Assembly: GCF_034259325.1 (NCBI RefSeq)
Contig: NZ_JAXIVS010000001.1
Coordinates: 310,001-374,000 of the forward strand
Direction of reading: 5' to 3'
DNA length: 64,000 nt
Source: Hyalangium ruber
GTDB taxonomy: Bacteria > Myxococcota > Myxococcia > Myxococcales > Myxococcaceae
Below the pieces are notes generated by a model that made no database searches, had not been told where the DNA came from, and saw only the letters and a list, made by a program, of their open reading frames with translations. Made by a program: the position numbers and the translations under genes. Position 1 is the stretch's first letter; each line of letters starts with the position of its first letter. This document shows, piece by piece, positions 56,471 through 58,927 of the stretch.

Positions 56471-57121
56471 TCAGAACCCCCGTGTCGCGGCGCGCAGCCA
56501 GCGCCAGTACGCACCCAGGCCCGGCGAGACGCGCGCCTGCGCCCAGCGCACCCGCCTCAGCAGCTTTCCCGTCAGCCCCTTCACCATCGGATCGAGCAAG
56601 GCCATCGCCTCGGCACGCTGTCCCTGACGGGCCAGCAGTCGCGCCAGGTCCAGCTTCGGCTCGAAGAGATCCGGGTCGAGCGTGAGCGCCTCCTTCAGCA
56701 GGGTGATGGCCTCGCGGCGCTCCTCCTTGCGGTTCAGGTAGAGCCGGCCGCGCAGGAGCATCCGCACCGCATCCGGGCGGCGCCCCTTCTCCATGTTCAT
56801 CTTCGCCACCTGCTGCCACAGGCTGATGCGCTGCGGAAACGTCTCCGCCGCCTGCGTGTAGACAGCCAGGGCCTTGTCGGCGAAGCCCTTGTCCAGGTGG
56901 CCCTTGGCCGCCGCGTGGAAGCTCCCCAGCGCGGCCTCGGGCTCATTCGTTCGCGCCAGCAGCGGCGCCAGCTTGCCGTGGACGACGGGGTCCTGCGGCT
57001 CCAGCTCCAAGGCCTTGCGATACCCGGCGATGGCCTTCTTGAGCCGGCCCTTGGACCGGGCGACATCCGCATGGGTGATCAACTCGGAGCGAGTCGGCGG
57101 CGCTTTCTGTCGGAAGAGCAT
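56471..57121 (-). CDS. Tetratricopeptide repeat protein
   Basis: 216 residues, no signal peptide. Several TPR units are visible (HADVARSKGRLKKAIAGYRKALELEPQDPVVHGKLAPLLARTNEPEAALGSFHAAAKGHLDKGFADKALAVYTQAAETFP; REAITLLKEALTLDPDLFEPKLDLARLLARQGQRAEAMALL). The C-terminus is basic and aromatic (KLLRRVRWAQARVSPGLGAYWRWLRAATRGF). It is probably a protein-protein interaction adaptor. It follows the PheS-like gene by 33 bp on the same strand. Confidence 0.85.
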   Translation of the reverse strand: MLFRQKAPPTRSELITHADVARSKGRLKKAIAGYRKALELEPQDPVVHGKLAPLLARTNEPEAALGSFHAAAKGHLDKGFADKALAVYTQAAETFPQRISLWQQVAKMNMEKGRRPDAVRMLLRGRLYLNRKEERREAITLLKEALTLDPDLFEPKLDLARLLARQGQRAEAMALLDPMVKGLTGKLLRRVRWAQARVSPGLGAYWRWLRAATRGF

Positions 57122-57154: not shown

Positions 57155-58288
57155 TCAGTGGGCTCGCGCCGCCCACTCCCACGCAGTGCCCTGATGCAGC
57201 GCCGCGTAGATGTCGTCACGCAGAATGTTGCACTCCTCGTGTGTCAGCGTGCGGTCCAGCGCGCGCAGCACCACCCGGAGCAGCACATTTTTCTGCCCTG
57301 GCGAAATCCCCAACCGCGTCACGGCCGCCGGCGGCAGCGCGTTGTAGGGAGTCTCCGCGCGGACCTCCACGCTCTCCACCATGTGCGCCCGCTCGCCGAG
57401 TGCGGCCCGGACCGCGTCTCCCAGCTCCTCGGGCGTCTCCTCCTCCCCGAGCACGAGGGACAGATCCCTCCGCACCTCTGGCATCGACGACACGGGGCGG
57501 TAGGGCGACAGGTCCAGCATCTGCGAGGCGATGCGGGGCTCCTCCGAGCGCAGCAGCCGGATGTCGTCCAACCCCTTGCGCAACATCAGGATGCGATCGA
57601 GCCCCAGCCCCATCGCCAGGCCCGTGGTGCGCCCGGGCTCCAGCCCGTTCTCCGCCAGCAGCGCCGGCAAGGCCAGACCGCACTCGCCGATCTCCACCCA
57701 TTGCGAGCCCTCACGCACGTCGATCTGCAGCCCATCCGTCGTGTACGGGTGCCGAGCGGGTTCCATGCGCAGCTCTCGCCCTGGCAGCACGGCGTGGACG
57801 AGCGTCTCGATCATCTCGCGCAGCTCCGCCACGCTCAGCGGAGGCCCCCGGCGAATGCGCCACAGGTCCATCTGGTGCGGCTCGCCAGTGTGCAGCCGGT
57901 CGATGCAGTCGCGCCGGTACACGAGCCCGGGACAGGCCAGCAGCACATCCTCGGCCGGAGCCGCCGCCAGCCGCCGCAGCAACCCCGGAATCATGGCCGA
58001 GGTCTGCGTGCGCAGCAGCGCCGTGTCACAGATGTAGCGCGTGTAGCGCGCGTCTCGCGCGGCTCCCTCGGGTGGGTAGTGAAGGTGATCGTAATTGTCG
58101 GCGATGGAGACGATGGGGCTCTGGCGGTGGATGCGAACTTGGCAGCCCCACGCTCCGCGCAGCGCCTCCAACGCGGAGGCGATGAGCTGCTGCAAGGCAT
58201 GGGGGCCATGGGCGGGGTCGGTGAGATCGCGGACGGACAGGGCGCGCCGAACATCCTCGGCGCTCAGCAGGGACACAGACGACAGCAT
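57155..58288 (-). CDS. PheS-related orphan class II ligase with FDX-ACB domain (SrmL-like)
   Basis: 377 residues from the ATG at 58288 (GAGAGG site eight bases upstream); an upstream ATG at 58327 is less well supported. The core resembles phenylalanyl-tRNA synthetase alpha: TRYICDTALLRTQTSAMIP (motif 2-like), DCIDRLHTGEPHQMDLW, WVEIGECGLALPALL and GLAMGLGLDRILMLRKGLDDIRLLRSEEPRI (motif 3). The C-terminal ~90 residues are an anticodon-binding FDX-ACB domain (SSMPEVRRDLSLVLG...GQKNVLLRVVLRALDRTLTHEECNILRDDIYAAL). The plan is that of monomeric mitochondrial PheRS. NCBI uses the name 'PheS-related mystery ligase SrmL' for similar proteins, as far as I recall. The true substrate is unknown. Confidence 0.75.
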   Translation of the reverse strand: MLSSVSLLSAEDVRRALSVRDLTDPAHGPHALQQLIASALEALRGAWGCQVRIHRQSPIVSIADNYDHLHYPPEGAARDARYTRYICDTALLRTQTSAMIPGLLRRLAAAPAEDVLLACPGLVYRRDCIDRLHTGEPHQMDLWRIRRGPPLSVAELREMIETLVHAVLPGRELRMEPARHPYTTDGLQIDVREGSQWVEIGECGLALPALLAENGLEPGRTTGLAMGLGLDRILMLRKGLDDIRLLRSEEPRIASQMLDLSPYRPVSSMPEVRRDLSLVLGEEETPEELGDAVRAALGERAHMVESVEVRAETPYNALPPAAVTRLGISPGQKNVLLRVVLRALDRTLTHEECNILRDDIYAALHQGTAWEWAARAH

Positions 58289-58576
58289 GGGAAACCTCTC
58301 GGATCGGAAGGGAAGCTCAGCGGACATTCCGGAGGCACCGGCGGACGGGCCGCCTGGCGCTACCGGCCTCGAATGCCCCCCCGGCGAGTCCGGGCGAGCG
58401 CATCACGCCGAGGTGGCGATCCGCTTCCGAGAGGAGTGCGCGCTACGGCAGCACGACCTCCCGACGCCCAGAGGGAGCCGGTGGGCTGCTAAATCGACGA
58501 GCGCACACCACGTGAAGCATGCCGTCATGGTTAACCGCGCCTCGCGCCGTTGGCAAGAGGCCGCTAGAGAACCCCC

Positions 58577-58927
58577 ATGAGCACCATGAGCCCCAGGTTG
58601 TCCTCACACTTCGAGGCCGAACTCCGTCAGGCCCAGGAGGCCGAGGCCCACGGCGAGCGCGAGGCCGCGTGGCGGTACCTCGAGCGCGCGCACATCCTCA
58701 GCCAGGCCCACGCCGGTCCGCATATCCGCGTGCATTGGAGGATGTTCACCTTCGCCTGGCGGACGCAGAATTACCGCGAGCTCCTCGGCCAGCTTCCCCG
58801 CCTCCTGCTGGCGGGCCCCGGCTCCCTCCTGGGGCGCGCGCCCCGGGGCAACACGGGCGGCACAAGCGTGGGAATCTTCACGCCCATGCCGATTCCCGAG
58901 GACCTTCAGGCCCTGCTCCGTGACTGA
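58577..58927 (+). CDS. DUF3703 family protein
   Basis: 116 residues, soluble: FEAELRQAQEAEAHGEREAAWRYLERAHILSQAHAGPHIRVHWRMFTFAWRTQNYRELLGQLPRLLLAGPGSLLGRAPRGNTGGTSV, the DUF3703 pattern with HxxVHW and GNTGG-like ends. Members often lie near copper or heavy-metal genes; none is seen here. Function unknown. A 288 bp divergent gap separates it from the PheS-like gene. Confidence 0.82.
   Translation: MSTMSPRLSSHFEAELRQAQEAEAHGEREAAWRYLERAHILSQAHAGPHIRVHWRMFTFAWRTQNYRELLGQLPRLLLAGPGSLLGRAPRGNTGGTSVGIFTPMPIPEDLQALLRD

Follow-up and report, generated by a model that had tools for sequence, protein, structure and literature searches.

We report a gene at positions 57155..58288 (minus strand) of the window, i.e., the whole 64,000-nucleotide stretch of Hyalangium ruber DNA analyzed here, whose product is very probably a mobile auxiliary phenylalanyl-tRNA synthetase (PheRS) for emergencies: it would be induced by uncharged tRNA-Phe, could be translated without phenylalanine, and would probably provide tolerance to PheRS inhibitors. 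This reading of the sequences combines the predicted fold, the catalytic residues, the lack of Phe in the protein, a leader ORF, complementary RNA segments, tRNA-Phe genes at two phage copies, and the mobility of the gene. A family known at NCBI merely as "mystery ligase" is thereby given a function open to testing.

The srmL Gene and Its Genomic Context

The gene lies in an uninterrupted ORF (57155–58327, minus strand). We prefer the start at 58288, corresponding to M14 of the long ORF, because GAGAGG is situated a few nucleotides upstream of it and the same start and spacing are kept in close relatives. The resulting product, characterized by profile searches, composition, predicted fold, and alignment, is a Phe-free, single-chain PheRS paralog of 377 aa. 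In Pfam, the class II PheRS core comes first (tRNA-synt_2d, 1.3e-33), followed by FDX-ACB (3.2e-08). The protein belongs to the NCBIfam family NF051887, "PheS-related mystery ligase SrmL" (530.1 bits against a cut-off of 300), with the match spanning model positions 1–349 of 349 and residues 32–380 of the long ORF. The profiles of ordinary enzymes score far lower: TIGR00469 (pheS_mito), with its cut-off at 258.35, gave 110.4 bits, and the pheS profile gave 112 bits, far under its cut-off. The intact ORF, the NF051887 match and the Pfam domains confirm the initial annotation of an orphan, single-chain PheRS-like enzyme with an FDX-ACB domain.

The host genome contains a separate pheS (TIGR00468, 352.7 bits) beside pheT (TIGR00472, 835.6 bits) on another contig, and a separate pheS was found in all 14 srmL-bearing genomes checked (G000, G007, G027, G028, G045, and G060–G068). 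Hence, SrmL is not the housekeeping PheRS. The initial annotation had said as much, allowing that a genome devoid of other pheS and pheT genes would make this the normal enzyme; both genes are present.

A TPR gene (56471–57121, minus strand) is indeed situated downstream of srmL, as had been noted. The region downstream of the window srmL is common mainly to the two nearest relatives, and the TPR gene is therefore not a functional partner of the SrmL family. We saw neither an inhibitor cluster nor a biosynthetic one adjoining srmL, in agreement with the earlier remark that biosynthetic neighbors are lacking. On the opposite strand, a gene encoding a DUF3703 protein (58577–58927, plus strand) starts 57 bp from the start of the srmL leader.

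Predicted Fold and Active Site

The predicted model of SrmL (pLDDT 91.3) has human mitochondrial PheRS as its best structural match (Z 35.4, 343 residues), followed by the cores of bacterial PheS; against 5mgv, 343 residues were aligned with an rmsd of 2.8. The model thus predicts an architecture of the mitochondrial type, i.e., a single chain of the same fold with the core preceding FDX-ACB.

The active site was assessed in an alignment of 19 SrmL and 27 PheS proteins, with the roles of the substrate and ATP residues of PheRS taken from parts of PMC12447630. The positions of Mtb Arg201, Gln215, Thr258, Ala305, Gly309, and Arg312 are invariant in all 19 SrmL. The position of Glu217 is occupied by Asp in 18 of the 19, and that of Ser177 by Ser in 13 and Thr in six. 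The Phe-binding FPF loop of the bacterial enzymes is not kept: His and Tyr replace Phe255 and Phe257, respectively, in 19/19 SrmL, with the middle Pro retained in 17, and a Gly near the Phe pocket has become an invariant Glu. In SrmL numbering, these replacements are His180, Tyr182, and Glu202. Mitochondrial PheRS aligns with FPF where SrmL has HPY. In human cytosolic PheRS, the loop positions held by Phe in bacteria are occupied by Asn410 and Tyr412 (PMC12447630).

Absence of Phenylalanine from SrmL

By residue counts, 34 of 38 SrmL homologs contain no Phe at all. These counts leave out the 5′-truncated L060 and the ordinary PheS proteins L056 and L057, and they include two partial rows, L071 (broken frame) and L077 (where the first in-frame ATG leaves 255 aa), without which 32 of 36 are Phe-free. 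From the background of 1.4–7.2% Phe in the respective loci, the expectation for each protein is 4.5–26.5 Phe residues. The full-length SrmL lack no amino acid other than Phe; Trp, Tyr, His, and Cys are all present. Only 3 of 166 other ORFs of 300–450 aa in the fetched loci are Phe-free (mean 11.7 Phe), this background consisting of the longest non-overlapping ORFs, some of them possibly spurious. Each of the 27 bacterial PheS used contains 16–25 Phe. At the 18 alignment columns with Phe in at least 60% of these PheS, Phe is replaced throughout the 19 aligned SrmL. Such avoidance accounts for the change from FPF to HPY in the pocket loop.

The four exceptions are L055, L058, and the phage protein L074, with one Phe each, and phage L075, with six. 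The IMG/VR huge phages were found after the Phe rule had been noticed and hence served as its test: their five SrmL contain 0, 1, 6, 0, and 0 Phe (the last one partial), where 10–20 would be expected. SrmL from a 635-kb phage, found earlier, has none. Phage L075 is a clear exception, and strict avoidance of Phe is not universal. For an SrmL without Phe, it follows that its own translation needs no charged tRNA-Phe. The family is an extreme case of cognate bias, with one amino acid almost wholly purged across phyla and phages.

Leader ORF and Candidate RNA Switch

The window srmL is preceded by a short upstream ORF with a conserved Phe codon, MLHVVCARRFSSPPAPSGRREVVLP (25 codons and a stop, 58443..58520, minus strand, as are all features below). 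Putative promoter elements, assigned by consensus match, are TTGCCA (−35, 58551..58556) and, 17 bp past it, TAACCA (−10, 58528..58533); by eye, the nearest relatives have the same arrangement. The leader contains a conserved R-F-x-x-P pattern, whose Arg-Phe codons are CGA TTT (58491..58496). This TTT is the sole Phe codon in the window leader and srmL taken together. The initial annotation had noticed neither the leader ORF nor the lack of Phe in SrmL. Of 32 leaders, 29 have TTT as their Phe codon, although in nine genes of the window TTT occurs 3 times and TTC 71 times.

Short upstream ORFs with R-F-x-x-P were found at 31 of 33 srmL loci and in 11 of 13 lineage representatives; the latter count carries more weight, because the srmL sequences are related and not independent. 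The chance rate of the pattern per 300-nt upstream region is 0–8% in dinucleotide shuffles and 0.3–4% in random windows from the same loci. The two leaders that deviate, MTRIRPARGLFSIFKIPFD (L055) and MNTNTTFNFFFSHKMV (phage L061), contain three and four Phe. No clear leader was found in the IMG/VR phages L073, L074, and L075. A longer leader pattern matched exactly once in each of six srmL-bearing myxobacterial genomes, always immediately before srmL, and in none of eight genomes lacking an srmL over the cut-off; a search with a short pattern was too loose for use. The sole Rfam match was a snoRNA far under its gathering score. In L069, the leader ORF contains a tandem repeat, RRYCGPSSRPG / RRFSGPPSRPG, the former copy having Tyr where the latter has Phe.

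Two kinds of pairing may form the switch. The C-rich strand directly past the leader Phe codon can pair with a distal strand, and this pairing is above chance (≤10/300 shuffles) in 8 of 12 lineages; it is not above chance in the window (115/300), L069, and L070, and L047 is intermediate. In the window, the strand just past the leader ORF, CCTCTCGGA (58426..58434), is complementary over 9 bp (3/200 shuffles) to the ribosome-binding region of srmL, TCCGAGAGG (58295..58303), and the two are predicted to pair by complementarity and by the RNAfold structure. Pairing of the Shine-Dalgarno region at ≤12/200 shuffles was observed in only 9 of 33 loci. A scan detected terminator-like hairpins with U-tracts in L045, L048, L058, L061, and L076, and similar hairpins were also identified by eye in L046, L047, and L055; in phage L076, a leader with six Phe is followed by a hairpin and a T-run. 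We tentatively read the control of srmL as translational in myxobacteria and probably transcriptional elsewhere.

Distribution and Mobility

The srmL gene is rare, has no fixed neighbors, and occurs in scattered fashion among phyla, on plasmids, and in phages. NF051887 exceeded its cut-off in 5 of 60 near-relative genomes (the genome of the window included), in 2 of 396 Actinomycetota (one of them the center of the draw, with one additional broken copy), and in 1 of 398 Pseudomonadota (the center of the draw). One profile scan of genome contigs yielded 25 loci, comprising 23 SrmL and two ordinary PheS. Plasmid copies occur in Azotobacter, on Glutamicibacter pGnB68, where srmL adjoins cmx and is separated from tet(33) by about 8 kb, and in C. 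diphtheriae. The latter copy is 5′-truncated and lies between erm(X) and tet(65) (L060:9746–10651); the adjoining ORF we take to be an IS6-family transposase. Phage copies come from the 635-kb phage record and five IMG/VR contigs of 181–578 kb, and no further ones emerged when L061, L074, L075, and L076 were used to query viral sequences.

A 31-row tree separates SrmL from six PheS with full support. Within SrmL, bacterial phyla and phages are interleaved, e.g., Pseudomonas faucium groups with a phage (on a long branch), and one Myxococcota row stands beside Actinomycetota with support of only 84/86. No conserved neighboring genes were found outside close kin, srmL being the sole cross-lineage ORF apart from isolated scattered matches. 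Judged by shared flanking sequence, the Myxococcota loci fall into several groups (window/L033/L034; L035 and L037–L042; L043/L044/L066/L067), and L036, L068, and L069 share little or nothing. A rare, scattered gene without fixed neighbors shows the pattern expected of a self-contained mobile gene with universal partners.

Near srmL, a tRNA-Phe gene was found in only two of six phages. In phage L074, srmL is flanked on either side by a tRNA-Phe(GAA) gene, and of the 12 tRNA genes these two are the closest in each direction. In L077, tRNA-Phe precedes the srmL region by about 100 nt and is the second-nearest tRNA. In L073, srmL directly follows a HisRS-like ORF, with serS nearby. Beside bacterial srmL, only isolated tRNA-like calls were obtained, in two of the scanned myxobacterial loci, none of them Phe. 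Huge phages have been reported to contain up to 15 tRNA synthetases, PheRS not being among those named in the parts of the text concerned (PMC7162821). The srmL of huge phage L077 (L077:2996–3325) lacks a standard in-frame start in its 5′ part, which may reflect an assembly error or real recoding, and a 5-codon ORF, MGFSR, overlaps this region in another frame.

Proposed Mechanism and Alternative Explanations

Under the proposed mechanism, the ribosome would normally pass the leader Phe codon, and the leader RNA would fold so as to keep srmL off, with the ribosome-binding site of srmL hidden in myxobacteria and, in several other lineages, probably by means of a U-tract terminator. If the housekeeping PheS-PheT were blocked, charged tRNA-Phe would run out, the ribosome would stall at the leader Phe codon, and the OFF fold would be prevented, resulting in synthesis of SrmL. 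The Phe-free protein could be translated without charged tRNA-Phe and would then recharge the tRNA-Phe of the cell. From the features described above we infer the charging activity, the stalling, the direction of regulation, and inhibitor resistance.

More PheRS would not cure a shortage of Phe but would cure a loss of PheRS function. A PheRS gene that responded to uncharged tRNA-Phe and whose translation needed no Phe would match the expectation for a rescue enzyme acting upon PheRS failure, caused most plausibly by inhibition by a drug or toxin. Tolerance to PheRS inhibitors would be the likeliest benefit, since a second PheRS is of use only after failure of the first, and it fits the spread of srmL on plasmids and phages.

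The best candidates are tRNA-Phe for the acceptor and Phe for the amino acid, given the structural match with mitochondrial PheRS, the kept active-site residues, and the tRNA-Phe genes at phage copies. The HPY loop and the invariant Glu in place of Gly could nevertheless mean that another amino acid is the substrate, although human cytosolic PheRS likewise departs from FPF, and the His and Glu leave room for a Phe analog. An enzyme loading an analog, e.g., a hydroxylated or amino-substituted one, onto tRNA-Phe might serve controlled mistranslation under Phe shortage, or detoxification, and SrmL, like mitochondrial PheRS, has no editing domain. We consider this role unlikely, as avoidance of Phe, which changed all 18 Phe-rich columns, accounts for the His and Tyr, and conserved nearby genes able to make an analog are lacking. 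Still less probable is ligation to a non-tRNA acceptor (a peptide, carrier protein, or small molecule), which the initial annotation had suggested along with the charging of a tRNA for a side pathway. Such synthetase paralogs do exist, PoxA and aa:CP ligases being examples in the parts of a review concerned (PMC9437257). Neither suggestion found support: the Phe-codon leader, the Phe-free protein, the phage tRNA-Phe genes, and the match with mitochondrial PheRS point to the charging of ordinary tRNA-Phe upon failure of the housekeeping enzyme. A non-tRNA acceptor also sits poorly with the retention of FDX-ACB, the fit of the model to mitochondrial PheRS along its whole length, and the lack of a conserved neighbor as possible acceptor, and we rate it the least probable of the alternatives.

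Induction by another class of compounds was also considered. In the erm and cat systems, drug-arrest leader peptides induce resistance to ribosome-targeting antibiotics, and srmL might be induced likewise, its enzymatic activity serving that resistance. Two plasmid copies, one close to cmx and tet(33) and the other flanked by erm(X) and tet(65), would suit such a role, as would the conservation of R-F-x-x-P beyond the Phe. However, the divergent leaders of L055, L061, and L076 keep Phe and not R-F-x-x-P, there is overlap between x-x-P and the C-rich pairing strand, and a PheRS fold and Phe avoidance would be irrelevant to a drug acting on the ribosome, making this explanation highly improbable.

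Relation to Known Systems

The prediction is of a transferable, inducible defense against PheRS inhibitors, compounds that are being developed as drugs. It also suggests that natural PheRS inhibitors are still to be found. One fungal natural product is described, in part of PMC12447630, as inhibiting M. tuberculosis PheRS. When the literature was searched for natural inhibitors of PheRS and self-resistance to them, the only match, as judged by its title, was on ThrRS. A broader proposition, to which we give an even chance, is that SrmL is the founder of a class of emergency synthetases purged of their own substrate amino acid, which could thus be translated once the corresponding aminoacyl-tRNA has run out. 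Its scattered occurrence would then imply that PheRS-directed natural antibiotics or toxins are common in soil and water and mostly undiscovered; SrmL would be the transferable resistance gene, and huge phages would keep translation going with it.

No description of SrmL function or of a Phe-free PheRS was found in the literature searched, many subscription papers being outside its reach; judged by title and abstract, none of the papers retrieved on Phe-free synthetases dealt with this subject. Among the matches listed, those for SrmL or "mystery ligase" were all unrelated, and nothing specific on leader peptides and resistance appeared; PMC5571608, in the part concerned, is unrelated to SrmL. 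Auxiliary resistant synthetases for Ser, Ile, and Trp are covered by parts of a review of duplicated synthetases, whose main text has no mention of PheRS or "phenylalanyl" (PMC9437257). Avoidance of the cognate residue by biosynthetic enzymes has been argued to be an escape from a catch-22 in PMC4209129, the main text of which, so far as it was covered, mentions no tRNA synthetase. SrmL would extend this cognate bias to an aminoacyl-tRNA synthetase.

Among single-chain enzymes, human FARS2 (PDB 3cmq, 5mgv) resembles SrmL in having the PheRS core followed by FDX-ACB and no editing domain, whereas it shares only about 25% identity, has FPF instead of HPY, is a housekeeping enzyme, and contains Phe. 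In E. coli, the pheM leader with Phe codons controls the PheRS genes pheST. The Phe-codon leader before a PheRS gene is common to both systems, but the pheST enzyme is two-subunit, contains Phe and an editing domain, and is neither mobile nor auxiliary. The mupirocin-resistant IleRS2, a plasmid-borne extra synthetase according to parts of PMC9437257, is likewise encoded on mobile DNA and stands in for an inhibited enzyme, as SrmL would. In contrast, no inhibitor of SrmL is known, the two enzymes fall into different synthetase classes, and SrmL shows avoidance of its cognate residue.

Another parallel concerns tryptophan. Vecchione and Sello reportedly found in 2010 that the auxiliary, indolmycin-resistant TrpRS1 of Streptomyces coelicolor is regulated by ribosome-mediated attenuation. 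Like SrmL, TrpRS1 has an auxiliary position beside a housekeeping synthetase, and its leader-peptide attenuator, reported to read the enzyme's own cognate codons, has a candidate counterpart in the SrmL leader. TrpRS1 differs in the amino acid and in being a class I enzyme; its indolmycin resistance is also covered in parts of PMC9437257. Among the second TrpRS genes readable, some encode 0 or 1 Trp and some at least two (two in L113), compared with 1–4 in most other TrpRS. Cognate avoidance by auxiliary TrpRS is therefore suggestive in two genomes and not in others, and not established, Trp being too rare for a judgment. Possible parallels to SrmL are the second TrpRS of G175 (L114), which has no Trp and is situated behind a short ORF, MTSVPCRNWWRSS, and an auxiliary-looking TrpRS of G091 (L115) with one Trp, behind the short ORF MTTRTCTQLWWAA.
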